Program-made: the position numbers and the translations under genes | Part shown: positions 973 to 19,451 of the stretch, in pieces | Numbering within the stretch: position 1 is the first letter of the stretch | Layout of the letters: every line of letters starts with the position of its first letter | The notes under the pieces: model-generated | What the model saw: only the letters and a program-made list of their open reading frames with translations | The model's database searches: none | Told to the model about the DNA's origin: nothing | DNA from: a bacterium | Lineage (GTDB): Bacteria; Zhuqueibacterota; QNDG01; JAFGCO01 | Reading direction: 5' to 3' | Assembly: GCA_016932575.1 (NCBI GenBank) | Contig: JAFGCO010000024.1 | Coordinates: 1 to 29,559, forward strand | DNA: 29,559 nt

Positions 973-2850
973 TTATTTTAACAGGACCACACGAACGTTT
1001 TGATGAAAGGCACCGGCCGTGATCCGGCATATGTAAACACCGCTGGGAAGCGGTATTTGCCGGTTTCCGCATCCGTTCCAGATGACCCGGTGTTTTCCCG
1101 GCGGCTGATCGGTGTTGATCAGGGTGGCAATGCTGCGCCCCGTAATATCAACTAATTGAATTCGGATAATGCATTTTTTCATCAAACGGTATTGAATCAC
1201 GATGCATTGATTGAATGGATTGGGAGAAACGGATTCCAGCCGGAACAGTGAGGGGACCGTCGAGTTTGGGGGGATTCCGCTTTCCATCTCACAATGATTG
1301 TCCAGAAGAACCTGATATTTGGGTGCGGATTCATGGTAAGGGGGGTGCTGGAAAAACTGACTTTCCAGGACACCCCAGCTTCCGTATTTTCCACTCTTGT
1401 TAGAAATAAACGAGAAATTCATGAAAAGAGAAGTCTGCCCTTCCGGAACGAAGGTCCCGAGTGAATCAAGCCATTCCTGATACAAATGATACATATCCGG
1501 ATGCGTCTGAGCGTCCATGAGCGCCTGATTGTAAGGCTGATCCGAGCCGAATGGATCGGGTGTGAGATGCTGCCCGCCTTCATAATAGACCAGCGGGATG
1601 TTCAGCTTCCGGGCGATGGATGTGTATTGTGACTTGATCCAGACGCAGGATTGAGTCAGCATGGCCTCCCGGGCCCAGAACAGCACATCTTCCGCGGTTG
1701 CAGTGCTTCCAAGCTGCTCAAGCGCATCATATCCTGCCTCAGAAAAGCCGAAGTAAGCCGCGGGTGAGAAGGCGTCAAAACTGCCGGGCCGCATATTAAA
1801 AACAATACGATTGCTGACATCCTGCCAGGATGCCTGCACGCCCACAACCCGCAAAATCCGATCCGTCTGACCCGAAAAAACGTCTGTCCAGATATCCATA
1901 GTATTCTGTATGAACGGCACGATCCGTTCCGGCCAGTCCGTGTCAGGATTTCCGTTCTCATAACAGTAATGGGTCTGGTTAAACATCCAGTTCCATATCT
2001 CGTTGGAATATTCCACATAGATGGTCAGGGATGGATTCAGTGAATCCCGAAACAGACAGGCCATTTTCCGAATATATTCTTCGTCTGCCAGGTGAGGAAC
2101 GCAAACCCAGGCATCGGCCTGTTTCAGGTTGCAGATATTTATCATGCATTCATACGGCACGCCCCGGGTCGTGTAGGTGTAATCTTCCACATTGGGACGA
2201 TCATTCCAGACCTGCAGCCTCGAATCATTTGTGATTCCCCAATCCATAAAACGAAGCACCTGAAATGGCCCGAGTTTTTCGAGCCATTCTTCTGTCCAAG
2301 GATTTTCCCTGTAAGTCAACTCCGTGCCCGGCAAGAGAACCCGGATATTCCGGACAGGGTTGCCTGCCCGTGATTCCATGATTGAAAGGCCCAATATATT
2401 GTCTTTATATTTCATATCGAATTCAATACGGCCCGGTGACTGTGATATCATCTTACCGTCAAAGTCAATGTCAATTATTCCTTCACCGTCATAGAGCACC
2501 ATATAATTTCCCTCTTTCAGTGTGGCTGTATTGGCCCATACGGTCCTGATTACCTGTGTGGTCTCCGCTCCGGCCACAGCAATCGGCAATTCAAGGGGAT
2601 AACCGTTTTCATCCATCGGAATTTGATCCAGCAGCCGGGTGTCCCAGGGATTTTCGCCTCCATCGACCCAGGCTAAATTGAATGTCATCCACTGTCGGCT
2701 GTATTTCATGATATTGACAAATGGCCATTCTGCCCCCCAATCCGACGGACCGGCCAGGTTGGTGCCGATTTCCAGGGGGCAGTGATGTGCAGAAAGCTGC
2801 CTGATGGTTATTGTTATCAGTATACAAATCAAAAATTTTTGAAGACGCAT
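973..2850 (-). CDS. Secreted glycoside-hydrolase-like protein with C-terminal sorting domain
   Basis: Using the ATG at 2850 the product has 625 residues and opens with a clean signal peptide (MRLQKFLICILITI..., cleavage near LSA). A GTG at 2871 is in frame but would only add seven residues; the AAGGGA at 2863-2868 can serve the ATG, at a rather long spacing. The body resembles secreted proteins annotated as cellulose-binding or hydrolase-like. A YVEYSNEIWN segment (E284) and a later YYEGGQ segment (E424) look like the acid/base and nucleophile glutamates of a clan GH-A barrel; this assignment is inferred from the motifs alone. The last ~85 residues (SPNPFN..., SGVYICRI..., ending VVLLK) form a FlgD-like/type IX sorting domain. 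It is the last gene of the minus-strand operon, 26 bases after the radical SAM gene. The substrate is unknown. Confidence 0.75.
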   Translation of the reverse strand: MRLQKFLICILITITIRQLSAHHCPLEIGTNLAGPSDWGAEWPFVNIMKYSRQWMTFNLAWVDGGENPWDTRLLDQIPMDENGYPLELPIAVAGAETTQVIRTVWANTATLKEGNYMVLYDGEGIIDIDFDGKMISQSPGRIEFDMKYKDNILGLSIMESRAGNPVRNIRVLLPGTELTYRENPWTEEWLEKLGPFQVLRFMDWGITNDSRLQVWNDRPNVEDYTYTTRGVPYECMINICNLKQADAWVCVPHLADEEYIRKMACLFRDSLNPSLTIYVEYSNEIWNWMFNQTHYCYENGNPDTDWPERIVPFIQNTMDIWTDVFSGQTDRILRVVGVQASWQDVSNRIVFNMRPGSFDAFSPAAYFGFSEAGYDALEQLGSTATAEDVLFWAREAMLTQSCVWIKSQYTSIARKLNIPLVYYEGGQHLTPDPFGSDQPYNQALMDAQTHPDMYHLYQEWLDSLGTFVPEGQTSLFMNFSFISNKSGKYGSWGVLESQFFQHPPYHESAPKYQVLLDNHCEMESGIPPNSTVPSLFRLESVSPNPFNQCIVIQYRLMKKCIIRIQLVDITGRSIATLINTDQPPGKHRVIWNGCGNRQIPLPSGVYICRITAGAFHQNVRVVLLK

Positions 2851-2876
2851 CGGATGTATAAATCCCTTCACATTGT

Positions 2877-4376
2877 TTATTCAAGGAGTCGGATCGGTTC
2901 GGTGTCCACATCCTGTATACGTCTGCTTTTCAGCATTCTGCGATACCGTATTTTTTCGATGAATCGTCTGAATTTCATGTTGTTAAAAAACAGGTTTTCC
3001 ACAAAGTCAGTAGCAAAAAGAAGGGCCATGATCGAATTTATCAGAGGATATTTTTTATACATCTGGCGGACTGCTTTTCTCGTCACCCGTTTTTCAATTT
3101 TGCGGCTGCGCTTTAATATCTTCTTCCGTTCCTTCAGTGAAATTTCAGGGGTCACAAAGACGGGCACATTTTCGTTTTCAGTCACATGATTCAAGTACTC
3201 TTCCGGCTGTTTAATAAACCAGCCATTATTTTTCACGGTTTCAAACAGTTCGGTTCCCGGATAAGGGATCGGATTATTCAAAATGACACGTTTGACCGGA
3301 TATTTTTGTACCATCCGGAATGAATCCTCAATGTCCGGCAGGGTTTCATAAGGCATGGCGAGTATGCAAAATATTTTTACATCAAATCCGAGCTCGCATG
3401 CTGTTCTGATAGCAGAATCGATCTGATCGATGGTCTCGCCCTTTTTATTCATGCGCAGCATATGGTCATTTCCGCCGTCCACACCGAATGCAATATAATT
3501 AAAGCCGACCTGCTTCATACGCGCCAATAACGGCTTGTCGATTTTATCGGCTCTCAATCCATTGGAGCAGCGGAATTCTGCATCGCGAATTTCCCGGGTT
3601 TCAATTTCATCGCAGATTGCAAAAATACGGTCCTTGAAAAACGAAAAATTATCATCGTCATAATTGAATGTCCGGATGCCTTTTTTATACCAGTATTCAA
3701 TTTCATCCACGACATGTTTCGGAGACCGCCACCGGAATTTTTTGGTGATCATTTTATTGGGACAAAAAACGCATCGAAAAGGACATCCCCGGCTGGAATT
3801 GAACGGCATCTCCCGGATATATTTATGCAGCTCAAACTTTTGATAGGTCGGGTAGGGGATGTCATCCAGGTTTTTTTCAAATATCCGGTGTCCGTTATAC
3901 TGAATTTTACCCTGAATACGACGAATGAGCCCCTTGATCTCAGAAACGGGAAGCCGGTTTTGGCAAAGTTCCGACAGTGTTTTTTCGCCTTCATAAACCA
4001 CGCCAAAATCAATATCCGGACATTCCTCAAGCACATGTTCCTGCAGCACAGTCAGATGCGGACCGCCTGCAATCGTTTTGATATGAGGGAATGCATGTTT
4101 GGTTGCTGAGATCAGATGATAGGATTTTTTGTATTCCAGCGAAACCAGAGAAAATCCGATTAAATCGGGCTCGTAAGTTTTGATTTTTTTCAGCAAATCT
4201 TTTATCCGGTAGCCCAGGCGCATATCCAGTATGTCATAGTCAATATTGTTCTGAAGCAGGGATTCGGCGAGGTACCCCAGATTCTGAGGCGGCCGTGCTG
4301 CACCCAGATAGCTGGAAGAGGGCGGGCTGACCAGAAGCACCCGCTGAAAACGGTTTTGAGACGGGCGGCTGTTCAT
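2877..4376 (-). CDS. B12-binding-domain radical SAM protein
   Basis: The 499-residue protein has the layout of class B radical SAM enzymes. An N-terminal Rossmann-like B12-binding domain spans about 10-140 (LVSPPSS, GFSLVS, IAGGPH and YEGE segments). It is followed by a radical SAM core with the cluster motif C198-x3-C202-x2-C205 and a C-terminal helical tail rich in basic residues. The DxHxxG motif of base-off B12 proteins is present only as DMRLG, with Arg in place of His, as in many members of this class. Such enzymes do methylations, ring contractions and other C-C chemistry on lipids, cofactors and natural products; the reaction cannot be read from the sequence. Its ATG overlaps the stop of the formyltransferase gene by 4 bases (4373-4376), so the two are translationally coupled. 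Confidence 0.88.
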   Translation of the reverse strand: MNSRPSQNRFQRVLLVSPPSSSYLGAARPPQNLGYLAESLLQNNIDYDILDMRLGYRIKDLLKKIKTYEPDLIGFSLVSLEYKKSYHLISATKHAFPHIKTIAGGPHLTVLQEHVLEECPDIDFGVVYEGEKTLSELCQNRLPVSEIKGLIRRIQGKIQYNGHRIFEKNLDDIPYPTYQKFELHKYIREMPFNSSRGCPFRCVFCPNKMITKKFRWRSPKHVVDEIEYWYKKGIRTFNYDDDNFSFFKDRIFAICDEIETREIRDAEFRCSNGLRADKIDKPLLARMKQVGFNYIAFGVDGGNDHMLRMNKKGETIDQIDSAIRTACELGFDVKIFCILAMPYETLPDIEDSFRMVQKYPVKRVILNNPIPYPGTELFETVKNNGWFIKQPEEYLNHVTENENVPVFVTPEISLKERKKILKRSRKIEKRVTRKAVRQMYKKYPLINSIMALLFATDFVENLFFNNMKFRRFIEKIRYRRMLKSRRIQDVDTEPIRLLE

Positions 4377-5125
4377 TTCTTAACGCACTTTCTTAATCGG
4401 CGGTTTATGATTTTTGTTTCATGGTATGGCATGGCTTTATACAGATTTCCTGTTGGTTCCGTGATTTCGGGCAGTATCAGGCATGCATCCCGGATATCAT
4501 GAACGGCCCGGATAATCAGTTCGGCGCCGCGTTTCATTGCCCGGTCATTGATTCTGGCAATGGTGTCACCTTTTTGAACGGGGATATGTTCCCTGAAAAT
4601 AATTTTTCCCCGATCAATTTCCGGATCAATAAAATGAATGGTTACTCCCGGTTTATCGCCGTTTTTCAGAGCATAAGCGTTGGCTCCGATGCCCCGGTAT
4701 GCGGGCAGCCACCCGGGATGCGGATTCAGGCATCCGATACCGGCGAGACCAAATATATTTTCCTTTAGGATTGGAGCAGACACAATGACCAGAAGATCCG
4801 GGGCACGGGATTTCAGCCATGTTTCACAATCCTGGCTGTTGAACCGGTCCACCCAGCAGAGCGGAATCTGATATTTTTCAGCCAGATGCACGAGTGTCCG
4901 GTGTCTGCATTTAAGCAAACCCATATGAAGAATTCGCTTAAGTGCAGCAAACAGGCCGTCTTTATTCATTTTTTCGATCAATCGTTTCCATCGGTTTGAA
5001 CGGTTTTGCTTTTTCACGATAATTGAATCAATGGCCACTTGATGCCTTTGGAATGTTTCAATGAAGATGTATCCAACAGGATTGTCCGGATAAGCAAGAA
5101 GGATGATTTTTAATGCGGTGTTCAT
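4373..5125 (-). CDS. Formyltransferase-family protein (10-formyl-THF dependent type)
   Basis: The 250-residue protein carries the formyl_trans_N signature: NPHPGWLPAYRG with N134 and H136, and HFIDPEIDRGKII with D171. These correspond to the Asn-His-Asp catalytic triad of GAR transformylase and methionyl-tRNA formyltransferase. It is shorter than Fmt (about 310) and lacks the tRNA-binding C-terminal domain, so a sugar-amine or small-molecule formyltransferase is more likely than Fmt. The first ~85 residues are a divergent Rossmann half. The gene overlaps both neighbours by an ATGA (5122-5125 and 4373-4376). The context suggests N-formylation of an amine made in this operon, which is inference. 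Confidence 0.85.
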   Translation of the reverse strand: MNTALKIILLAYPDNPVGYIFIETFQRHQVAIDSIIVKKQNRSNRWKRLIEKMNKDGLFAALKRILHMGLLKCRHRTLVHLAEKYQIPLCWVDRFNSQDCETWLKSRAPDLLVIVSAPILKENIFGLAGIGCLNPHPGWLPAYRGIGANAYALKNGDKPGVTIHFIDPEIDRGKIIFREHIPVQKGDTIARINDRAMKRGAELIIRAVHDIRDACLILPEITEPTGNLYKAMPYHETKIINRRLRKCVKK

Positions 5126-5958
5126 GGTTTGTTTTTCAGTGATTCACGTGGAAACGGATCATACTCGGCGATAATGGTCTGACCGGCCCGAACTGTTTCT
5201 TTCGGATGAATCAGGATTTGCAGCCCCTTAAGATCGGGAATGACCACATCAACCTGGGATCCGAAACGAATAACACCAAATCGTTGACCCTTTTCCAAAT
5301 AATCCCCCGGTTTCATGTAAGAAATAATCTGCCGGACTCTTCTGGAAGCTATTTGCACGATGCCGATTTGAAAAGGACCGTGATCAATCAGTGTGGAAAG
5401 ACGCTGGTTAACAAACGGCGCTTCATTTCTTCGTAAAGAAATATACTTTCCTTTGACGGAGTGCTGTTTTAAAATTGAACCGCTGACCGGTGTACGATTG
5501 ACATGCACATCCAGGATGCTCATTTCTATACCCACAAGCACAGCATCTGATTTTGACAGTTCCCAACCGGTAAATTCTTTTAAAGCGATTCTCCGGTCGG
5601 CCTTGATGGTCAGCGGGATTGTATGATTTTTAATTTTTTTTACATATAAAATGGTTCCATCCGCAGGGGATAATATGACATGCTCCTTATCGGGAATAAT
5701 CCGGTCAGGATCCCGATAGAATCTAAATAAAACGATCACAAGTAAAATCAGGCAGGTTAACAATCCGGGGATAATCCACCGCATCCATGGATTTATTGAA
5801 ATGCCTGATTGATCCAATATGATCAATAAAAGCGTTGAAACAGGCGCCGTCATGATAATACCAATAAGAGCCAGATAAAATTTGATTTTACATTTGATTG
5901 CCAGAGGCAGGATGATCACTGCGGAAATCAAGAGACTTTGAAGAAAACAAATGCCCAT
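5122..5958 (-). CDS. Phosphatidylserine decarboxylase-like protein with N-terminal membrane segments
   Basis: The protein has 278 residues, with hydrophobic segments at about 5-24, 27-50 and 60-80, then a decarboxylase domain. Visible landmarks are SPADG (D100), DVHVNRTPVSG (H152) and RFGSQV. G233-S234 is the self-cleavage site that gives the pyruvoyl cofactor, and D/H/S correspond to the triad of PSD enzymes. The size and motif spelling fit the short archaeal-type/PSD-related branch, not E. coli Psd. The known reaction of the family is decarboxylation of phosphatidylserine to phosphatidylethanolamine. Because the neighbours are a ligase and a formyltransferase, the substrate here may instead be a different seryl or amino-acyl lipid. 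Only 3 bases separate it from the upstream gene. Confidence 0.85.
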   Translation of the reverse strand: MGICFLQSLLISAVIILPLAIKCKIKFYLALIGIIMTAPVSTLLLIILDQSGISINPWMRWIIPGLLTCLILLVIVLFRFYRDPDRIIPDKEHVILSPADGTILYVKKIKNHTIPLTIKADRRIALKEFTGWELSKSDAVLVGIEMSILDVHVNRTPVSGSILKQHSVKGKYISLRRNEAPFVNQRLSTLIDHGPFQIGIVQIASRRVRQIISYMKPGDYLEKGQRFGVIRFGSQVDVVIPDLKGLQILIHPKETVRAGQTIIAEYDPFPRESLKNKP

Positions 5959-5961
5959 AAA

Positions 5962-7134
5962 TTAAAATCCCCGTTTTTTCCAAAGATAGGGAAGCATGAA
6001 AAATTCTCCGAAGAACGGAAGCGGATCATTGTATGAGAAAACCGCATGCTCGTGGATATGGCTGACAGAATGGGTGTATTCCTTCCAAGTCAGACGTCCT
6101 CTGAATATTTCTGTAATCGCGGTGGGTGTATCTGTGATGAACCGCCTCCATTTGACGCCTTCAAGGAAACCCTGTTTTCTGATTTCTTTTCCCATCATAT
6201 CCGAATAGAGATACCAGGGCAGGTTGACACCGGCTGCCGAAGCAATGGTATGCCAGCCCCAGACTCTCGGATTGATCTCCAGCAGTTTATATTTATGATC
6301 TCTGGAGTCCAGCAAAAATTCAATCTCACAAATACCATAGAAATTGATCGCTCTAAGCAGTTCGACACCGAGTGTCTCAAGCTCAGGTACGCGCATACTG
6401 ACGGCCAGTGTTGAGGCCTGGCCGAATTCCATGGGATGCTGTCGCAGCCGTTTGGCGGTGACTTGTGCCAGAACCTGTTTATTTTTAAACCAGGGACAGA
6501 AAGAATACAGATTGTTACAGGCATCCTGTATTTTTTCCTGCAACATGATTTCTTCTTTTGGAATAATCGAGCAGGCCAGGCGATAATATTTAAACAGGTC
6601 ATCCTCATTATTGATTTGAAACACTTTGGTCTTCGTGCGTTTAAAAAAGCGATAGACGACAGCGGGTTTCAATACAACAGGATAGTTCAGTTTCAGGTGA
6701 GGCAAATCCTTTTCTGAAGCTGGATAGTACGTCTTTGGGATAGGGATCCCTGCATTTTCAGCGATAGAATAGGTAAGTTTTTTATTATAGGCATATTTGA
6801 CACAATCCCATGCCGGTGTGGTCACCTTGAAATATGCAGATAACAGGTCTTTGTTTTTGGATATTGTAAAAATAGTTTCATCGCAAGTCGGAAACAGGAC
6901 GTAATTTTTTAATTTAAATTGATCGGCAAGCCGGATCAGGAAACGGATGAATTTTTCACTTTCAGAAAAATGGGGACATCGATAGTATTTCCAGACATAT
7001 CTTGAGTACCGGGCCATACAGGGTTCATGATCAATGAGAACAGATTTGACGCCCTTTTTTGCGAGCGACCGAATGAGACCCAGGGCATGAAAATGTCCGC
7101 CAATGACGATCGCGCCAACTTCATTATTTATCAA
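5962..7134 (-). CDS. ATP-grasp ligase of unknown substrate
   Basis: The 390-residue protein begins with a Rossmann-like pre-ATP-grasp segment (AIVIGGHFHALGLIRSLAKKG). An ATP-grasp fold follows: KLTYSIAENAGIPIPKTYYP at the linker, YPVVLKPAV at the ATP-binding lysine, and EIEFLLD...KLLEINPRVWGWH at the Mg-binding glutamate/asparagine near residues 280-310. It resembles carboxylate-amine ligases found in polysaccharide and lipid gene clusters (D-aspartate ligase-like group), which couple ATP to formation of an amide or peptide bond. The only start in frame is a TTG at 7134 without a good ribosome binding site, so the start is uncertain. It is the first gene of the five-gene minus-strand operon. 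Confidence 0.8.
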   Translation of the reverse strand: MINNEVGAIVIGGHFHALGLIRSLAKKGVKSVLIDHEPCMARYSRYVWKYYRCPHFSESEKFIRFLIRLADQFKLKNYVLFPTCDETIFTISKNKDLLSAYFKVTTPAWDCVKYAYNKKLTYSIAENAGIPIPKTYYPASEKDLPHLKLNYPVVLKPAVVYRFFKRTKTKVFQINNEDDLFKYYRLACSIIPKEEIMLQEKIQDACNNLYSFCPWFKNKQVLAQVTAKRLRQHPMEFGQASTLAVSMRVPELETLGVELLRAINFYGICEIEFLLDSRDHKYKLLEINPRVWGWHTIASAAGVNLPWYLYSDMMGKEIRKQGFLEGVKWRRFITDTPTAITEIFRGRLTWKEYTHSVSHIHEHAVFSYNDPLPFFGEFFMLPYLWKKRGF

Positions 7135-10820: not shown

Positions 10821-12461
10821 TTATTTCAATAATACCATCTTTCGTGACCGGATAAAGGTGTCCGACTGAATTGTGCAGAAATAAATTCCGGATTCCAATT
10901 TTGAACCATCGAAATATATCGCATGATTACCCGTATTTTGCTTTTTATCGATCAGAATTGCCACGGTTTGCCCCAGGCTGTTGACTACAGTCAGCCTGAT
11001 TTTCTCTGGTTTTGCCAAAGTGTAGATGATTCGTGTCCAGGGATTAAACGGATTCGGATAGTTTTGTTTTAAATCAATATCAGCTGGTAATGGAGAATTG
11101 CATTCAACGCCTGTATCCAGATTGAACAGATCAATGGTGTCGGATATGATTTCAACACCGTCCAGATAGGTCATCAGGTAATAGGAGTTGGTGGATCCTT
11201 TCTTCAGTGTTGCCCGGTATTCCAGATTTTCTTCCACACTTTTAAAACCTGTCATTTGCAAAAATCCGTCTCCGTCCCAGGCATCTCTGTATATACTCGT
11301 TCTTTCTCCGGTGTTATGAAAAGGCGTGAAATATATTTTATAGTATCTGTATCTGCTCGATTCTCTGTCGATCAGCACAGACATGGCATTGGCATGATGC
11401 GCTCCATGATAGGCCAAAACCTGAAATTCAGTTAATAAAATATCCGTTTCGGCCTGATTGGCGCCGGTGACAGTGAGTTTAAAATACTGGAATGATTGAG
11501 GTGTGATGACATCAGCCAGAGCCAGCTGGTCCGTTTCCGTTCTTTCTGAATGATCGGCCAATGTTGTCCAGTTTTCGGTATCCAGGGAACCTTCTATGGT
11601 GTACTGCACAGCCCGTTCCGCAGAGCTGGCAAAGTCGAGCACGAATGCGTCTATCGAGTCCGGTTCCCCGATATCCACGGTAGCCATGGCCGGCAGTGAA
11701 GATATCATCCAGGCAGTCATTGGATCGCCATCGATCAGGGCCCCGCCATTTTCGCCCGTGTCTGTCAGAACCGTTTTATTTTTTGCAGCATTGACATCAA
11801 ATTTTTTCTGAACAGTATCCCCTGTGAAAACTTCATACAGAATTTTTGCCATGGCATTCGCGCCTGCCGGATTGGGATGGATGTCATCAGGAAAATATTC
11901 ATTGTGCCCGATGAACGGCGTATAAAAATCGACCCGATTCAGGTTCCGTTCAGCAATGACCTGTTCGATTGCCGGAATCACTTCATTCACGATCACGGTA
12001 TCATTGATGCCCCATTTGACTGAAAATGCCGGCGGGGGCAGACAGGCCCAGACTTCAGGCACTTTGTCTCCTACCAGAGAGAATGTATCAATCATCGCAA
12101 TATAGTCATCCGTAAATTCATCTCCGTAGTCACCCCAGTTCTGCGGTTTGCTGTCATTGGTGCCTAAAAGAATAATCAGCGTATCCGCGTTAAAGTTCAG
12201 GGCGTCTTCAAAAAGCGGTTCGACCCAGATCGGAAAGTCTCCGTGTTTCAACATGGTTCTTCCGGAAACCCCGAAGTTGCCGACTTCATAATCCGCGCCG
12301 AGATACATGCCCAATTGTGCGGGATAACTGTCTCTGGAAGGAACTCCGACCCCGACGCCTTCGGTGATGCTGTTCCCCACAATCGCGATTTTTGTGGGCT
12401 GAGCGTTTATGATGATAACGGATAAAAAGACACTGATGATTGAGATTATAAGATTTTTCAT
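10821..12461 (-). CDS. Secreted SGNH/GDSL esterase with discoidin-like domain and type IX sorting domain
   Basis: The 546-residue product has a signal peptide (MKNLIISIISVFLSVIIINA|Q). An SGNH hydrolase domain spans about 22-215: GNSITEG with nucleophile S31, block II glycine in NFGVSG (G64), GTND with N102, and DDIHPN with D192/H195. Residues about 220-350 look like a discoidin (F5/8 type C, CBM32-like) domain, with GGALIDGDPMTAW and FQYFKLTVTG. After a further beta-rich segment, the last ~90 residues are a YPNPFNP-type sorting domain ending RKMVLLK. The gene probably removes acyl groups from extracellular polysaccharide (acetyl-xylan esterase-like), which is inferred from the domain pairing. 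It converges with the ABC-F gene, 102 bases away. Confidence 0.88.
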   Translation of the reverse strand: MKNLIISIISVFLSVIIINAQPTKIAIVGNSITEGVGVGVPSRDSYPAQLGMYLGADYEVGNFGVSGRTMLKHGDFPIWVEPLFEDALNFNADTLIILLGTNDSKPQNWGDYGDEFTDDYIAMIDTFSLVGDKVPEVWACLPPPAFSVKWGINDTVIVNEVIPAIEQVIAERNLNRVDFYTPFIGHNEYFPDDIHPNPAGANAMAKILYEVFTGDTVQKKFDVNAAKNKTVLTDTGENGGALIDGDPMTAWMISSLPAMATVDIGEPDSIDAFVLDFASSAERAVQYTIEGSLDTENWTTLADHSERTETDQLALADVITPQSFQYFKLTVTGANQAETDILLTEFQVLAYHGAHHANAMSVLIDRESSRYRYYKIYFTPFHNTGERTSIYRDAWDGDGFLQMTGFKSVEENLEYRATLKKGSTNSYYLMTYLDGVEIISDTIDLFNLDTGVECNSPLPADIDLKQNYPNPFNPWTRIIYTLAKPEKIRLTVVNSLGQTVAILIDKKQNTGNHAIYFDGSKLESGIYFCTIQSDTFIRSRKMVLLK

Positions 12462-12760: not shown

Positions 12761-13045
12761 ATGGAAAATAAAATTTATACCAAAGATGCCTCGATTGTCT
12801 CCCGTAAAATCGGGGAAGAGTTTATCCTTGTTCCCATTCGCCGGAAAACCGAGGACGTGGAGAGCATTTTCACACTCAATGAAGTGGGCGCTTTTATCTG
12901 GGATCATCTCGACGGCAGGTCAGATCTGATGAAAATTCGTGATTCGATTGTCAAATTTTTTGAAGTGACCCAGGAAGAAGCCGAAGCCGATCTGGTCAGT
13001 TTTTTGCATCAGTTGGAATCGCTGGGTATTATTACGAGTAAATGA
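12761..13045 (+). CDS. PqqD-family peptide-binding protein (RiPP recognition element)
   Basis: The 94-residue protein matches the PqqD fold: an N-terminal beta segment (FILVPIRR...ESIFTLNEVGAFIWDHLDG) followed by helices (DLMKIRDSIVKFFEV, EEAEADLVSFLHQLESLGII). The FTLNEVGAFIW core is characteristic. Stand-alone PqqD proteins hold the leader of a precursor peptide and present it to a radical SAM maturase. It shares ATGA (13042-13045) with the downstream SPASM gene, and the candidate precursor at 14195 has a motif of the kind such domains read. The preceding 299 bases are AT-rich. They contain a tentative promoter (TTGTTG 12659-12664, 18-base spacer, TATTAT 12683-12688), and the ribosome binding site is weak. 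Confidence 0.9.
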   Translation: MENKIYTKDASIVSRKIGEEFILVPIRRKTEDVESIFTLNEVGAFIWDHLDGRSDLMKIRDSIVKFFEVTQEEAEADLVSFLHQLESLGIITSK

Positions 13046-14235
13046 CTATGGATTGTCCGAAACTTATCCATACAAGATACGGTGTCTTCAGTGAAAGACT
13101 CCACGAGACGATTATCAAACGTCATATTCCAGCATCAGGGAGTATTGAACTCACCACGCGATGCAATTTGAACTGCGCTCACTGTTATATTAATCAGCCT
13201 GTCAGTCATGCCGGTGTGAAAAAACGTGAATTAACAGAGTCGCAGTGGATCTCCATGATTGATCAGATGGCGGATGAAGGGTGTTTATGGTTGCTCATGA
13301 CCGGTGGAGAACCATTTGTCCGAAAAGATTTTTTTCATATCTATACCCATGCAAAGAAAAAGGGGATGCTGATTTCCCTGTTTACAAATGGCACACAGTT
13401 GACGGAGAGAATAGCGGATTATCTGACGGAGTGGACACCCTTTGTGGTCGAAATCACACTTTACGGGCGCACACAGGAAACGTATGAGCGGGTGACCGGT
13501 GTCCCCGGCTCGCATAAACGCTGTTATCAGGCCATTGATATGCTTATGAAGCGTCAGATTCCTCTGCAGCTCAAATCCATGGTATTGAATATCAATCAGT
13601 CTGAAGTCAGAAGCATGCAGCAATTTTCCAGAGACAGGGGCTTGACATTCCGTTATGACCCGGTAATCAGCAAGCGCATCGACGGATCAGATATGCAGCG
13701 GGATTGCCGGCTGTCTCCTCAGGAGATTGTGGCCTTTGAGAATGAAGATGAAGAACGCCGGTCCGCGTGGCTGGATATCTGGAAGCGGCTGAGCCATATG
13801 CGGGCTCCGGAGGATCGGCTGTTTACATGCGGCGCCGGGAGAACCAGTTTTCACATTGATGCATCCGGAGTGCTGTATATCTGTATCATGGTCAGGCATC
13901 ACGGATACGATCTGAAACGCGGCAGTTTTCATGAAGGATGGCATCATTTTATTCCCGGTATCCTTGAACAGAAACGTGTCAAATCGATTCCATGCGCTAC
14001 ATGTGATATCCAGGCTCTATGCGATTATTGTTCCGGATGGGTCAAAATGGAAACCGGGGATATTGAGGGATACAGCCCCTATTTATGCGAAATTGCCCAC
14101 CTCAGGGCAGATCGGATGGGAATTCAAAACAATTTGCAAACCATTCAGAGGCAAATGATCAAATCCAATGCCGCCATTACCAAGGAGGAAAAACATGAAA
14201 TTGGACAAGCGGCCTTATGCCGGACCTCGGATTGA
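13042..14235 (+). CDS. Radical SAM/SPASM peptide maturase
   Basis: The 397-residue protein has the radical SAM cluster motif C41-x3-C45-x2-C48 (TRCNLNCAHCY), the GGEPF motif of the SAM-binding strand, and a C-terminal SPASM domain. The SPASM cysteines are complete: C263-x12-G-x4-C281, then C318-x2-C321-x5-C327-x2-C330, and C349. Two auxiliary iron-sulfur clusters are therefore likely. SPASM enzymes beside PqqD proteins install thioether (sactionine) bonds, carbon-carbon crosslinks or other changes in peptides. The start ATG overlaps the PqqD stop; a second ATG two codons later is possible. The 3' end overlaps the precursor gene by 41 bases in another frame. The type of crosslink cannot be predicted from the sequence. 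Confidence 0.93.
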   Translation: MTMDCPKLIHTRYGVFSERLHETIIKRHIPASGSIELTTRCNLNCAHCYINQPVSHAGVKKRELTESQWISMIDQMADEGCLWLLMTGGEPFVRKDFFHIYTHAKKKGMLISLFTNGTQLTERIADYLTEWTPFVVEITLYGRTQETYERVTGVPGSHKRCYQAIDMLMKRQIPLQLKSMVLNINQSEVRSMQQFSRDRGLTFRYDPVISKRIDGSDMQRDCRLSPQEIVAFENEDEERRSAWLDIWKRLSHMRAPEDRLFTCGAGRTSFHIDASGVLYICIMVRHHGYDLKRGSFHEGWHHFIPGILEQKRVKSIPCATCDIQALCDYCSGWVKMETGDIEGYSPYLCEIAHLRADRMGIQNNLQTIQRQMIKSNAAITKEEKHEIGQAALCRTSD

Positions 14236-14362
14236 ACGTGTGAAGCTTATTCCGGAAGAGGCAGTGCTGACAGGATGCAAGGCTACAGTAGGGACTCAGG
14301 GCAGCGGCAAGACAAATGGCAAGTGCCAATCGCAATGGCTATGCAATGTTATCGGAAGCTGA
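14195..14362 (+). CDS. Candidate RiPP precursor peptide, three Cys
   Basis: The frame encodes 55 residues from an ATG preceded by AAGGAGG at ideal spacing. That start beats an upstream in-frame ATG near 14168, which would add nine residues. The leader holds Y8-A-G-P11-R-I13, a YxxPxI motif like the one bound by recognition domains in lasso and related leaders, then an acidic IPEEAVLTGC turn. The probable core, from about residue 27, is rich in Gly/Ser/Thr/Lys/Gln and has Cys at 28, 44 and 50, with W48. It is polar, small and in the usual place for a precursor between maturase and tailoring genes. It starts inside the SPASM gene (41-base overlap). The exact leader/core border and the modification are unknown. 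Confidence 0.82.
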   Translation: MKLDKRPYAGPRIERVKLIPEEAVLTGCKATVGTQGSGKTNGKCQSQWLCNVIGS

Positions 14363-14375
14363 CTGCGATTTTTTT
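14329..14375 (+). terminator. Possible attenuator/leaky terminator after the precursor gene
   Basis: ATCGCA (14329-14334) can pair with TGCGAT (14364-14369), with a smaller GCT/AGC pair inside, followed by seven T (14369-14375). The loop is large and the stem weak, so an efficient terminator is unlikely. A partial stop here would raise precursor RNA over the downstream tailoring genes, as often seen in RiPP operons. This role is speculative. Confidence 0.25.
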
Positions 14376-14457
14376 ACTATTGGATATTGAGTTATTGAAT
14401 AAAAGGGTGACATTGATTACCATGTCATTCTGACACATTGTCGAGAGTTGTATTTTT

Positions 14458-15342
14458 ATGCAGACAAACCCGATCGAGCAGCTCAAAATCGCAGAAATCC
14501 CCATTTCAATCTATTGCCAGACACACCCCTATTTCAGTGATGATGTTTTTAATGCCTTTCGATATCAATCACCTCCTGAAGTACAAATGCACCTGTCCTA
14601 TAATCGTTTTCCGCATATGGACGTGAACAAGATGGATCTCCTTTTTGATTCACAGACCACATGGCGCCTGTACAAATCCCGTGATCATGTTGTTTTTATT
14701 CAGAAATCAACAATCTGCGATTATTCACATCCCTTAATGGCCAGTTTATTTAAAAATGATTATTGCCAAGCCGATGTATATATACAGACGAATCATTCGG
14801 ATGATCCTGAAGATATTTTTAATCCGCACCCTCTCGATTATCCGCTCGGTCAGATATGGATGATCAGTCTTCTTGCCCGGAACCGGGGGGCCATGTTTCA
14901 TGCCTGCGGTGTGGATGACCAGGGAGACGGCCTTCTTTTTACAGGCAACTCGACTCATGGCAAATCGACCATGGCCAATCTATGGATTCAAAATCATGCT
15001 CAGATCCTGAATGATGACCGGGTGGTGGTCAGGCAAGTAAAAGAGTCATTCCGTATTTATGGAACACCCTGGCATGGTGATATATCGGTGACATCCAGCC
15101 ATTCTGTTCCGCTCAAGAAAATATTTATCATCAGGCATGCCGATAAAAATCAGTTGAAGCGTGTGGAGGGAGCCGAAGCATTGTCCATGCTGATTGCCAG
15201 GATGTTTCCGGTGATTTGGGATAAAAGCGGCATGGAGTTTACCCTGGATCTTTGCGCCCGGATGGCTGAGGAAGTGCCATGCTATGAACTTGGATTTAAA
15301 CCGGATTCGGATATCATTGATTTTGTGCGATGCGCTATCTGA
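14458..15342 (+). CDS. HPr-kinase-like (HprK-related) kinase of the RiPP cluster
   Basis: The 294-residue protein has an HprK-type C-terminal kinase domain. FHACGV (H148) precedes a P-loop G163-NSTHGKST (K169, S170), then come the acidic pair in LNDDRVVV (D186, D187) and the GTPWHGD segment that closes the site. The first ~125 residues are a divergent domain with no match to the HprK N-terminus. HprK-related kinases occur in many peptide clusters; in paeninodin-type lasso clusters one phosphorylates a Ser of the precursor. The target here could be a Ser/Thr of the peptide at 14195 or a small molecule. The start ATG at 14458 lies 95 bases after the precursor, and its 3' end overlaps the next gene by 13 bases. 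Confidence 0.85.
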   Translation: MQTNPIEQLKIAEIPISIYCQTHPYFSDDVFNAFRYQSPPEVQMHLSYNRFPHMDVNKMDLLFDSQTTWRLYKSRDHVVFIQKSTICDYSHPLMASLFKNDYCQADVYIQTNHSDDPEDIFNPHPLDYPLGQIWMISLLARNRGAMFHACGVDDQGDGLLFTGNSTHGKSTMANLWIQNHAQILNDDRVVVRQVKESFRIYGTPWHGDISVTSSHSVPLKKIFIIRHADKNQLKRVEGAEALSMLIARMFPVIWDKSGMEFTLDLCARMAEEVPCYELGFKPDSDIIDFVRCAI

Positions 15343-16367
15343 CCCTACATAGAGAAGCATTGAATCAACTGACGGATGTCGTTTTCGATAAAAACGGAAT
15401 TCTCCATTTTATTGCCAGGGGTCAGAGCATGCATCCTTTTATTCATCACGGGGATGTTATTTTTATTAAATCCATTGAAAACAGAAAGCTGGTTCCGGGA
15501 GATATCTTATTTTATCGTTACCGAAACGGAAAATCAAGTGTACATCGGTTGACCGGGATCGTTCTGAAAAATTCCATGATCCGATACATTGTTTGCGGAG
15601 ATGCCCATCCCTTTTCTCATGAATGTCTGAATCCCGATCAAATACTGGGGCGAGTCTTTCAGGTGAAAAGACAGAACAAAACCATGGATTACGACAGGGG
15701 GATATGGCGATTCGCCGGCAGGATATGGATTTGCCTTCCATCCATTGTTCGCCGGTACGTAATATTTCTTACCCATCCTTCAAGAATCGGATTGGGTGCG
15801 CTGAATCGATTACAAAAAAACGCCGTGTATCGGATTGTCATGCGTTCGATCCTGTATAAAAACATTCGGATTTGCGATGCAACGGATGAAGATATTCCGT
15901 CACTGGTCCGGTTGTTCGATTATCAAAGATATTATTCTGATTCGGATGCTGTGATGAGATTCAGAGAACAATTTCGTCATATCAGTCAAACCGGATGTAT
16001 TCTTATTGCAAAATATAAGGATAATGCCGCAGGTGCAGTCGTGCTGGAACGGGAATCGGAACAGAATGGATCCGGTTCATGGTGGATGAACAGTTTGTTT
16101 ATACGACGTCGTTACAGGAAAATCGGGATTGCCCGGGCATTGATGCACCATGGTTTTCAACGAATCATCAGAGAAAGCGGTTCAAGCATACACTTTTTTT
16201 TATTTCGCGATAATATTGCCGGGATTCGCTATTATGAGAAAATGGGTTTTAAAATCTGTACAGATACGGCAAGCCGGCAATTGTTCGATGAAGAAAGCAG
16301 CCAGGAAAAGAGACCGCGCATTGTGATGTCCCTTGAATTGAGTGAAGCATCCAGACTTGTCTTATGA
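15330..16367 (+). CDS. S24/S26 signal-peptidase-like protease fused to GNAT acetyltransferase
   Basis: The protein has 345 residues in two parts. Residues about 20-115 are a S24/S26 peptidase fold: ARGQSMHPFIHHGD with the nucleophile S33, VPGDILFYR, and SSVHRLTGI with H72 where type I signal peptidases have Lys. The Ser-His arrangement is that of SipW/ER-type enzymes. A basic hydrophobic segment (about 125-175) follows and may touch the membrane. Residues about 178-312 are a GNAT domain with the acetyl-CoA motif RRRYRKIGIARAL and the closing RDNIAGIRYYEKMGFKI. The overlaps (13 bases upstream, ATGA downstream) place it in the operon. Leader removal plus acetylation of the peptide is a reasonable guess. 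The C-terminal part after 320 is a short charged tail. Confidence 0.85.
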   Translation: MRYLTLHREALNQLTDVVFDKNGILHFIARGQSMHPFIHHGDVIFIKSIENRKLVPGDILFYRYRNGKSSVHRLTGIVLKNSMIRYIVCGDAHPFSHECLNPDQILGRVFQVKRQNKTMDYDRGIWRFAGRIWICLPSIVRRYVIFLTHPSRIGLGALNRLQKNAVYRIVMRSILYKNIRICDATDEDIPSLVRLFDYQRYYSDSDAVMRFREQFRHISQTGCILIAKYKDNAAGAVVLERESEQNGSGSWWMNSLFIRRRYRKIGIARALMHHGFQRIIRESGSSIHFFLFRDNIAGIRYYEKMGFKICTDTASRQLFDEESSQEKRPRIVMSLELSEASRLVL

Positions 16368-18178
16368 AAATAAAATCAAAATTTAAGAAAGTTTTTAATC
16401 TCAAGATGTCTTTTTCGCTTGTCTGGGAGAGTGCAAAAAAATGGACTCTTCTGAGCACGTTTTTGATTGTACTGCAGGGCCTTGTTCCCCTGGTTTCACT
16501 GGTTGTTATTAAAGTCATTATCGATACGATTACTGAGAGCGTTCAGTCTGCTGCTCCTATGGATTCATTTCAGAGAATCGTTATACTGATTTCCCTGTTA
16601 GGGTGTACCAGCTTACTGAATATGTTCATTCAGAGCATGATTCACCTGACCCAGGAACATCAGTCACTGCTTGTTACGGATCATGTGCTGGATTTGCTTC
16701 ATTCCAAATCTATTGAAGTCGACCTGGAATATTATGAAAATCCTGATTATTTTGACACGCTGCACAGAACACAGGAAGAAGCGATCTATCGACCGACAAG
16801 AATGGTGCATGGTCTGGTCAGGATCATAAGAAGCGGTATTTCACTGGCAGCGATGGCAGGATTGGTTGTTGCTTTACACTGGGCCCTGATATTTGTCCTG
16901 CTTTTTGCCATGCTTCCGGGACTGTTTGTCCGGTTAAAGGCTTCGCAAAAAATATATGCCTGGCAGGAAAAACGGACTGCCAGCCAGAGAAAGGCACAAT
17001 ATTATCATTGGGTAATGACCAGCGATGATTATGCGAAAGAAATACGGATATTCGGACTGGGGCCCCTGTTTATCCGGCAGTACAGAAAAATCAGAGTAAA
17101 ATTGAGAAAAGAAAAAATGAATCTGCTTCAGCACCGGATTTCACAGGATTTTCTGACCAAAATCTGGAGTATTTTCATTGTGACTGCTCTTTATGCATTG
17201 TTGGCGAATTATACACTTCAGGCTCAATTGACACTGGGCACCTTTATCATGTTCTATCAAGTGATTCAGCGCAGCCAGCACTTCTTTGGTGATATTCTGA
17301 ATGGATTGGCAGCTCTTTATGATGATGCGCTTTTCACGTCGTATCTTTTTGATTTTCTGAAAATTGGGCCGAGAATTAAAACACAGAAAAACAGCCTGTT
17401 TTTTCCAGTACCAATCCGTTCAGGATTTAAATTTTATAATGTTTCTTTTCGTTATCCATCTGCTGAGAAAATGGCGCTTAAGCAGATAAATCTTCATATA
17501 AAACCAGGGCAGGTGGTGGCTTTTGTGGGTGATAATGGATCCGGAAAAACAACGCTGGTCAAACTGTTATGCCGGTTATATGATCCGGTTGAGGGATCGA
17601 TTACAGTAGACGATATCAAACTCACTCATATTGAAATTTCTGAACTCAGGCGGCAATTTGGTGTATTATTTCAGGACTTCGCACGGTACCACAATACCGC
17701 GAGGGAAAATATCTGGTTTGGAAATTCGGATGGGGTGGAGAGAGAGTCTAAAAAAATTATTGACGCGGCTAATCTGACAGGAGCCCACCATACCATAGAA
17801 TCGTTACCAGATGGCTATGATACCCTGTTGGGAAAATGGTTTGAATCAGGTGAGGAACTGAGTATCGGGGAGTGGCAAAAAATTGCCTTTGCCCGGTGTT
17901 TTTTGAAAGATGCTCCGGTTGTTGTTCTCGATGAACCAACAAGCGCGCTCGATGCGGAAACAGAATACAAAATATTCCATCAGGTTCAGAAAATGAAAGC
18001 GGAAAAAACGATTATACTCATCAGTCATCGTTTTTCAACGGTACGAATGGCGGATATCATATATGTGCTTGATTCAGGAAAAATTATTGAGCAGGGATCG
18101 CACAGACAGCTATTAAAACTGAATGGCAAGTACTGCCGGCTTTTTAAAATGCAGGCCGAGGCATATAATGCAACCTGA
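16364..18178 (+). CDS. ABC-type peptide exporter (fused permease/ATPase)
   Basis: The 604-residue half-transporter has a six-helix membrane domain in about the first 330 residues and an ATPase domain after about 350. The ATPase domain has Walker A GDNGSGKTT (from G389), Q-loop FQDF, signature LSIGEW (from L499), Walker B VVVLDEPTSALD (D523/E524) and H-loop SHRFSTVRMAD. The signature departs from LSGGQ in the way seen in some RiPP and lantibiotic-cluster exporters. There is no N-terminal C39 peptidase, so leader cleavage must be done elsewhere, probably by the peptidase-GNAT protein just upstream. It would act as a homodimer in the inner membrane. The gene starts in an ATGA overlap with its upstream neighbour and its end overlaps the nucleotidyltransferase gene. 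Confidence 0.92.
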   Translation: MKIKSKFKKVFNLKMSFSLVWESAKKWTLLSTFLIVLQGLVPLVSLVVIKVIIDTITESVQSAAPMDSFQRIVILISLLGCTSLLNMFIQSMIHLTQEHQSLLVTDHVLDLLHSKSIEVDLEYYENPDYFDTLHRTQEEAIYRPTRMVHGLVRIIRSGISLAAMAGLVVALHWALIFVLLFAMLPGLFVRLKASQKIYAWQEKRTASQRKAQYYHWVMTSDDYAKEIRIFGLGPLFIRQYRKIRVKLRKEKMNLLQHRISQDFLTKIWSIFIVTALYALLANYTLQAQLTLGTFIMFYQVIQRSQHFFGDILNGLAALYDDALFTSYLFDFLKIGPRIKTQKNSLFFPVPIRSGFKFYNVSFRYPSAEKMALKQINLHIKPGQVVAFVGDNGSGKTTLVKLLCRLYDPVEGSITVDDIKLTHIEISELRRQFGVLFQDFARYHNTARENIWFGNSDGVERESKKIIDAANLTGAHHTIESLPDGYDTLLGKWFESGEELSIGEWQKIAFARCFLKDAPVVVLDEPTSALDAETEYKIFHQVQKMKAEKTIILISHRFSTVRMADIIYVLDSGKIIEQGSHRQLLKLNGKYCRLFKMQAEAYNAT

Positions 18179-19451
18179 TTCCTCCATATTGATTTTACCC
18201 GATGAGTCGGACCAGATGCTGGTATCTTTGATTCGTGCCTATGTTCATCATACAAGTTTCGATGCGTGGGGAGCAGCCTCATTAAACGATTGGAAAATTC
18301 TTGTAGAAAAATCAATAAGACATCGTATTACGCCTGTTCTGTACGATATAGTAAAAACGATAGACCGATGTCCGCAAGGTATTGCAGGAAGATTAAAAAG
18401 GGATTATTTACAGAACGGTGTTTTGAATGCCCGTAGATTTCATATTTTTCATGAGCTGATTGCTGATTTAAGGAAACAGAATATCCCGGTTATTCTTCTA
18501 AAAGGTGTATATTACGCGGACTATATCTATAAAAATATTGCCTTAAGAACGATGGATGATTTTGATATTCTGATTCAGAAAAAATATTTAAATCAAATCC
18601 TTTCATTGTTATTCAATCGTCAATATCGTTTTGCTTCCCAAAAAATAACCAAACATAAGGAGCTCTATTTTAATCGGTCCTATTTTGTTTCTCCTCAATT
18701 GAAACATTTTCCAACCCTCATCTCGCCGGATGGAGATCTTGGATTGGAAATCCATTGCGGTTTAGTCCCTGAAGATTCTTCCATTCAAATTGATTCGGAA
18801 AATATTTGGAAAAGGGCTGTCCAGATTGAAGATAATGTATGGAGACTCTGTCCGGAAGATCTGCTCAATTATCACTGTTATCATACAGGCATCACACATC
18901 TTTTCAGAGGCGGCCTGAGAGATTTTATTGATTTGGTAAAAGTACTGGACCATGATCAGGACAGAATTGAATGGTCTGCTTTTGTAAAGACTGTCAGAAC
19001 CTGTAAAACAGAAAGATGCGTTGTCATGATATTGGCAATGGTTCAGGAAATACTGAATGTTGATATCGAATCGGAGGTGTTTAAGGCATTGGAAGCAGGG
19101 GCTTTCGTCGGTCGTTTTCAAACTGAAGCGATGTGTCTGCTTTTCAAAGATTCACAAGCCGTAAGGGGATTTTCGAAAGATTTCATTCGTTTTTGGGCAA
19201 GATCAGGCATTGTTCATAAAATTCTTATGCTTTTTAGAATACTTTTTCCATCAAAGCAAATTATGGCTCTGATGTATCCTGTGAAGAACAGTACCATCAG
19301 GATGTTGCTTTACTATCCGAGAAGATTTATCGATCTTTTACGAAGATACGTTGCGATCGTTTGTAAAATGCAGCCTGCTAACTCTTATCTTATGCAAACT
19401 GTTCATCAAATGAATCAACTTGAACAATGGCTTCTGGGCTCAATTAAATAA
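18168..19451 (+). CDS. NTP_transf_5-type nucleotidyltransferase of the RiPP cluster
   Basis: From the ATG at 18168 (11-base overlap with the ABC gene, GAGG upstream) the product has 427 residues. An upstream frame start at 18123 would lie deep in the transporter gene and has no binding site. The family landmarks are ILLKGVYYADYIY, RTMDDFDILI with the paired acids of the nucleotidyltransferase site, LEIHCGLVP, CPEDLLNYHCYHTG and GGLRDFIDLVKVL. This family regularly travels with HprK-related kinases in lasso-peptide and related RiPP clusters, where its reaction is generally unassigned. Nucleotidylation of the peptide or of a tailoring group is the obvious hypothesis. It is the last gene of the overlapping run. 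Confidence 0.85.
   Translation: MQPDSSILILPDESDQMLVSLIRAYVHHTSFDAWGAASLNDWKILVEKSIRHRITPVLYDIVKTIDRCPQGIAGRLKRDYLQNGVLNARRFHIFHELIADLRKQNIPVILLKGVYYADYIYKNIALRTMDDFDILIQKKYLNQILSLLFNRQYRFASQKITKHKELYFNRSYFVSPQLKHFPTLISPDGDLGLEIHCGLVPEDSSIQIDSENIWKRAVQIEDNVWRLCPEDLLNYHCYHTGITHLFRGGLRDFIDLVKVLDHDQDRIEWSAFVKTVRTCKTERCVVMILAMVQEILNVDIESEVFKALEAGAFVGRFQTEAMCLLFKDSQAVRGFSKDFIRFWARSGIVHKILMLFRILFPSKQIMALMYPVKNSTIRMLLYYPRRFIDLLRRYVAIVCKMQPANSYLMQTVHQMNQLEQWLLGSIK

Follow-up and report, generated by a model that had tools for sequence, protein, structure and literature searches.

The stretch analysed here, referred to as the window, is the whole contig JAFGCO010000024.1 (29,559 nucleotides) of a 4.4-Mb metagenome-assembled genome (MAG), most likely of the candidate division KSB1. 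It carries a seven-gene operon (12761-19451) in the order PqqD-like protein, SPASM radical SAM enzyme, precursor peptide, HprK-like kinase, SipW-type peptidase fused to a GNAT domain, ABC exporter and NTP_transf_5 protein, and all seven genes listed by a first-pass annotation, made from the sequence alone, were found in place. Neighbouring genes mostly overlap or almost abut, the sole gap, of about 95 bp, lying between the precursor and the kinase. As in ribosomally synthesised and post-translationally modified peptide (RiPP) systems in general, a small precursor gene is conserved beside maturation enzymes and encodes a conserved leader and a variable core. The operon comprises the following features:

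12761..13045, + strand: PqqD-like discrete RiPP recognition element (RRE; Pfam PqqD, 2.2e-16)
13042..14235, + strand: radical SAM/SPASM peptide maturase (Radical_SAM, 6e-19)
14195..14362, + strand: precursor gene, 55 aa, MKLDKRPYAGPRIERVKLIPEEAVLTGCKATVGTQGSGKTNGKCQSQWLCNVIGS, with a Shine-Dalgarno sequence (AAGGAGG) directly upstream
14195..14263, + strand: predicted leader, residues 1-23, with the RRE-docking motif Y8-A-G-P11 and ending in EEA
14264..14359, + strand: predicted core, 32 residues, VLTGCKATVGTQGSGKTNGKCQSQWLCNVIGS, with Cys28, Cys44, Cys50 and C-terminal Ser55 (codon 14357-14359)
14458..15342, + strand: HprK-like peptide kinase (Hpr_kinase_C, 2.4e-5, below the Pfam cut-off; ScmC, 4e-8)
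15330..15675, + strand: SipW/archaeal-type signal peptidase domain, predicted leader peptidase (TIGR02228, 5e-11, below cut-off)
15876..16367, + strand: GNAT acetyltransferase domain, fused to the peptidase (Acetyltransf_1, 3.7e-11)
16364..18178, + strand: MsbA-like ABC exporter, permease plus ATPase (MsbA_lipidA, 1.4e-81, below the equivalog cut-off; ABC_tran, 4e-31)
18123..19451, + strand: NTP_transf_5 protein, predicted modifier of the phosphorylated C-terminus (PF14907, 9e-46)

The precursor family and its distribution

Relatives of the radical SAM enzyme (rSAM) were gathered first from its class and phylum and then by profile from about 85,000 species genomes; single-protein scans with the rSAM against viral and genome collections gave no match, whereas the profile scan succeeded. 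We define as type I those loci in which PqqD, rSAM, precursor, HprK-like kinase, SipW-type peptidase (with or without GNAT) and NTP_transf_5 are collinear; the locus tallies depend on hidden Markov model thresholds and on fragmentary MAG contigs. A neighbourhood search for gene order and precursor, as proposed in the first-pass annotation, showed PqqD-rSAM-precursor-kinase in this order at 47 of 60 type I loci; contig ends truncate several of the rest. Absence of a conserved small gene at the 14195 position from homologous loci had been named there as a result that would refute the proposed scheme; the gene is kept, with a homologue recognisable in 56 of the 60, and this conservation rules out a chance small open reading frame (ORF). 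With AAGGAGG ahead of the start at 14195, a longer ORF from 14168 is unnecessary. The same operon was found in a second KSB1 genome (G056:C287, L035, 11,528 bases), where a precursor match lies at the same place (phmmer E 6e-8).

Spacing and conservation were counted on 59 type I precursors. All 59 carry a [Y/W]xxP leader motif and in all of them the first conserved Cys lies exactly 20 residues after the Tyr/Trp of this motif. Lys directly follows this Cys in 55/59, while Glu stands at -6 (55/59) and Leu at -10 (57/59) relative to it. The cores are short, Gly/Ser/Thr-rich and hypervariable between the fixed points, with the exception of their end. The C-terminal residue is Ser or Thr in 56 of the 59, and of 101 precursors in the wider family, 85 have a terminal Ser and 11 a terminal Thr (96 together). 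After clustering of the cores at <45% identity, with the last residue ignored, 78 of 83 still ended in Ser/Thr, compared with 19% Ser+Thr within the cores. These cores are still related to some degree, and a binomial figure for the excess is not to be taken as a probability. This conserved C-terminal Ser, a pointer to the probable role of the kinase, was overlooked in the first-pass annotation. Three Cys are present in 53 of 71 type I-like precursor cores, and core position 3 is seldom Ser in type I precursors. At a further KSB1 locus (L041, G047:C46, 7879-14569), four different precursor genes share the leader and have very different cores. The VLTGC stretch resembles a lipobox (L-x-G-C), and a lipoprotein reading was rejected because the leader lacks a hydrophobic stretch. 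A PDB sequence search with the precursor profile returned nothing meaningful.

MAGs with type I loci are labelled as Acidobacteria, KSB1, Aminicenantes, Desulfobacterota/Deltaproteobacteria, Nitrospirota, Nitrospinae, Omnitrophota, Chloroflexota, Fermentibacteria, Elusimicrobia, Aerophobetes, Actinomycetes and others. As the taxonomic labels of small MAG contigs are not always correct, we limit the statement to a spread of the type I operon over at least 10 phylum-level groups of uncultured bacteria. A FastTree phylogeny places the window rSAM in a moderately supported clade (83) that is made up of 57 type I enzymes and free of sequences of the SynChlorMet cassette (NCBIfam ScmA-ScmF); the branching order inside this clade was not used.

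Related clusters that we call type II have two or three rSAM enzymes each; their precursors bear WxxP leaders and likewise end in Ser (29 of 30) or Thr (one). Such clusters commonly encode a protein of about 650 aa that is a direct fusion of radical SAM and HprK-like kinase domains (L015:13484-15451, L036:9061-11016, L037:3485-5434, L138:1654, L147:1105, L148:4080, L157:3843 and others). In Omnitrophota the SipW-type peptidase can be fused to NTP_transf_5 (L099:11177, L105:3937, L123:11143), and at L102:3892 peptidase, GNAT and NTP_transf_5 are joined in one 693-aa protein. The rSAM-HprK and peptidase-NTP_transf_5 fusions suggest that the parts of the cluster are functionally tied. At eight type I loci, all labelled Chloroflexota or its classes (L097, L100:13183-16224, L109, L116, L118, L119, L122 and L126), a related protein lies nearby; at L100, the sole example checked of the eight, it is a C25 (gingipain-like) peptidase.

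Enzymes of the operon and their surroundings

The PqqD-like protein is the sole PqqD of the genome. Its best NCBIfam match, below cut-off, is the lasso PqqD chaperone NF033536, and the nearest solved structures are the lasso RRE PbaB1 (9x90), the RRE LppB (9x8z) of a linear polyphosphorylated peptide (LPP) system and the lasso RRE TbiB1 (5v1u). All ten iron-sulfur Cys of the rSAM (CxxxCxxC and seven C-terminal SPASM Cys) are present and are kept in 138-141 of 141 homologues. Among solved structures the sactisynthase SkfB comes closest to the family profile, and among NCBIfam models the rSAM scores best with mycofactocin MftC (6e-29, far below its cut-off). Kinase residues His148, Lys169, Asp186 and Asp187 are retained in 73-78 of 80 homologues. 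The AlphaFold model of this protein (pLDDT 93.3) gave HPr kinases as top PDB matches, together with phosphoenolpyruvate (PEP) carboxykinases (E ~5e-6), at low TM-scores, as only part of the model aligns; HPr kinases and PEP carboxykinases have a common fold.

The peptidase-GNAT gene spans 15330-16367. Catalytic residues of the peptidase are conserved throughout the family: Ser33 (75 Ser and 6 Cys among 81 homologues), His72 (81/81) and Asp91 (80/81). The first-pass annotation had not recognised this domain as the likely leader peptidase. The GNAT domain was detected in just 13 of 60 type I loci, and among these loci the ABC exporter lies clearly within the operon only in the window and in the other KSB1 operon. 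In the NTP_transf_5 protein the catalytic-type D146-x-D148 is invariant (36/36 homologues), and its AlphaFold model (pLDDT 79) weakly resembles polymerase-beta-type nucleotidyltransferases. Gene content, order, conservation and intact catalytic residues are direct observations.

NCBIfam and Pfam scans detected neither a lasso cyclase nor a transglutaminase-like peptidase in the operon. Asn-synthase-like proteins of this genome are encoded on other contigs only, and PF13471 (lasso B2 peptidase) had no match anywhere in the genome. An Rfam scan showed no RNA elements in the window, and promoter and terminator scans yielded no more than in shuffled sequence. Adjoining the operon on the minus strand (10821-12461) is a gene for a GDSL lipase that has an F5/8 domain and, at its C-terminus, a sorting tail of the Por secretion (type IX) kind. 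The minus strand also holds what may be a second biosynthetic operon (973-7134), which encodes a B12-binding radical SAM protein, a formyltransferase, a phosphatidylserine-decarboxylase-like protein, ATP-grasp proteins and a 632-aa protein without a Pfam match.

Predicted maturation pathway and its alternatives

We propose, at a probability of roughly 0.7, that the operon makes a ribosomal peptide with two kinds of modification, one introduced into the core by the rSAM and the other, phosphate-based, on the C-terminal Ser55. The analysis supports the earlier description of the locus as a RiPP cluster that appears complete and whose lasso-type accessory enzymes act for an rSAM-processed precursor, with neither a lasso cyclase nor a transglutaminase-like peptidase in the operon. 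We infer all the individual steps, the rSAM chemistry being the least certain. For the LPP system of Paenibacillus alginolyticus (lpp cluster) it was shown experimentally that the YxxP leader is bound by a discrete RRE, that an HprK-like kinase adds several phosphates and that a SipW-type peptidase, assisted by the RRE, removes the leader (PMC13381572).

By homology, the PqqD protein would act as the RRE that binds the YxxP leader and presents the core to the SPASM enzyme, which would most likely install thioether or other crosslinks involving the three core Cys. Conservation and the precedents of PadeK and ThcoK suggest that the HprK-like kinase phosphorylates Ser55. In paeninodin-type lasso systems the kinases act on a C-terminal Ser that is highly conserved in kinase-bearing clusters, and their His-Lys-Asp-Asp residues were reported as essential (review PMC9266682); retention of this set supports the C-terminal Ser as the target also here. 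More tentatively, the NTP_transf_5 protein might attach a hexose or a nucleotide to the Ser55 phosphate, in analogy to pseudomycoidin, where the nucleotidyltransferase-like protein PsmN is required for hexoses on phosphate (review PMC9266682). The SipW-type Ser/His/Asp peptidase, assisted by the RRE, is predicted to cut the leader, probably after Ala23 (EEA/VLTGCK). With the peptides aligned on Tyr, which is at -16 in LPPs, the LPP cleavage site falls at EEA/V; Glu occupies -2 in both peptides. Signal peptidases favour a small residue at -1, which here is Ala23. Both cleavage after Ala23 and phosphorylation of Ser55 are predictions from homology and conservation. Acetylation by the fused GNAT domain may follow, at the new N-terminus or at the conserved Lys, and the MsbA-like ABC protein would export the product.

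Several points weigh against this proposal. The precursor of L035, the closest relative and from the same phylum, has two core Cys only, so that crosslinking in one fixed pattern of three Cys cannot be universal, and 5 of 101 precursors end in a residue other than Ser/Thr. An HprK-like kinase by itself does not imply a C-terminal site: SynChlorMet cassettes contain a related kinase, yet their candidate precursors (picked by eye) end in the non-hydroxyl residues Pro, Ala, Gly, Asn, His or Phe, and LppK acts on core Ser3 and not on Thr there (PMC13381572). For LppN no activity was detectable (PMC13381572), and the reactions of the present family are predictions from sequence and analogy.

The precedents of LppK and SynChlorMet would also suit a kinase that does not act on the C-terminal Ser and either modifies another residue or regulates the pathway, the terminus being kept for exporter recognition, sugar attachment or a similar role. 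We consider this unlikely, as the terminal Ser is replaced almost solely by Thr, which preserves the hydroxyl, and paeninodin-type kinases do act on a C-terminal Ser. The rarity of Ser at core position 3 of type I precursors likewise disfavours another target and led us to reject an LPP-like Ser3 phosphorylation. A terminal Ser is not trivial for such clusters, because the SynChlorMet candidates end otherwise. Another reading sees the product as an LPP-like linear phosphopeptide, with phosphorylation and leader removal as the main events and the rSAM making a single-residue edit (epimerisation, decarboxylation or other) and no crosslink. It would fit the gene set, which equals the LPP core plus an rSAM, the composition and shortness of the cores and the many reactions that SPASM enzymes perform. 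However, most type I cores have three Cys, of which the first is fixed in position, and SkfB, to which the rSAM is closest among solved structures, is a thioether enzyme; we regard such a product as improbable to a similar degree. A small cofactor or redox molecule, PQQ- or mycofactocin-like, in place of a secreted peptide would agree with the MftC match of the rSAM; with an exporter within the operon, polysaccharide-export loci near many homologues and cores that are hypervariable between fixed points, unlike those of cofactor precursors, we find this very hard to credit.

Among the 48 type I loci that span at least 9 kb, 13 have Wza-like polysaccharide-export genes, recognised by Poly_export and SLBB domains, in the vicinity of the operon, and the second KSB1 operon is one of them; the corresponding counts are 0/22 for type II and 0/12 for SynChlorMet loci. 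None was present among the genes checked on the window's own contig, and this neighbourhood is a hint for the type I family, not for the window. LPP and paeninodin clusters have also been reported beside capsule loci. It is a rather doubtful, speculative idea, though one with which the export genes near type I loci would agree, that the rSAM-crosslinked peptide might be joined by NTP_transf_5, via its C-terminal phosphoserine, to a sugar of an exopolysaccharide, which would make the products a class of peptide-decorated capsule.

Comparison with known systems

Novelty of the enzyme mix as such was not supported: LPP clusters (PMC13381572, 2026) contain the same set without the rSAM, and SynChlorMet has PqqD and an HprK-like protein beside two SPASM enzymes. 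The window operon is a new, widespread arrangement of known parts, the chemistry of which is predicted. Apart from the NCBIfam cassette models, an HprK-like kinase together with a radical SAM enzyme in a RiPP cluster was undescribed in the open-access literature searched.

The whole LPP enzyme set (discrete RRE, SipW-type peptidase, HprK-like kinase, NTP transferase and MsbA-like exporter) is present in the window together with a YxxP leader, and both systems do without a lasso cyclase. LPP clusters often lie near capsule or exopolysaccharide genes, as do some type I loci. The reported LPP core set has no radical SAM gene, is described as Bacillota-restricted and leads to phosphorylation of core Ser3 (PMC13381572), whereas the type I family has a SPASM enzyme, Cys at Tyr+20 and a C-terminal Ser/Thr, and occurs in many other phyla. 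Membership in the LPPs was rejected, since the precursor motif YxxPxVLxHQxIxFETxxS is not matched, core position 3 is rarely Ser and a SPASM enzyme is present.

SynChlorMet loci were taken from the phylum of a Desulfobacteraceae MAG, in which 17 of 395 genomes exceed the ScmE cut-off. They share with the window PqqD, SPASM enzymes and an HprK-like protein, and those over or near the NCBIfam cut-off (L167-L178) often also have a SipW-type peptidase, an ABC exporter and NTP_transf_5. They differ in having two SPASM enzymes in place of one and in candidate precursors that do not match the type I precursor profile and lack the terminal Ser. The window proteins all score far below the curated cut-offs, with 88 vs. 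400 bits for ScmE and 33 vs. 125 bits for ScmC, and the window precursor matches no NCBIfam model, ScmA appearing in one relative only (E 0.24). With these scores, a single rSAM and unlike precursors, we rejected membership also here; no paper on SynChlorMet was found in the open-access literature.

Paeninodin and pseudomycoidin resemble the window system in a YxxP/WxxP leader read by a PqqD-type RRE, an HprK-like kinase, a C-terminal Ser and a nucleotidyltransferase-like protein. The lasso-type YxxP leader and PqqD-type RRE are both present in the window, and the hallmarks of lasso-type HprK-like kinases (the His-Lys-Asp-Asp set and a precursor with C-terminal Ser) are found at the level of sequence and model, activity being predicted. 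In contrast to these lasso systems, the operon has no lasso cyclase and the genome no PF13471; instead, radical SAM and SipW-type peptidase genes are present. Assignment to the lasso peptides was rejected because the Asn-synthetase-like cyclase and the B2 peptidase are missing from the operon. With sactipeptides and ranthipeptides (SkfB and PapB systems) the window shares a SPASM enzyme and a Cys-containing precursor, but its scores are not near the curated cut-offs, and those systems are not defined by a kinase, NTP_transf_5 or a SipW-type peptidase.

Within a broad superfamily the window cluster forms one branch, and LPPs run parallel to this superfamily without a radical SAM enzyme. In the type I operon, conserved across many uncultured phyla that are mostly anaerobic or from the subsurface, a radical SAM maturase is paired with the module that lasso peptides and LPPs use for phosphate tagging. 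With a defined family of precursors and with predictions for the leader boundary and for a single phosphorylated residue, the order and targets of the enzymes become directly testable. This includes the NTP_transf_5 step, unexplained in LPPs, as the phosphate is here predicted to sit at the C-terminus.

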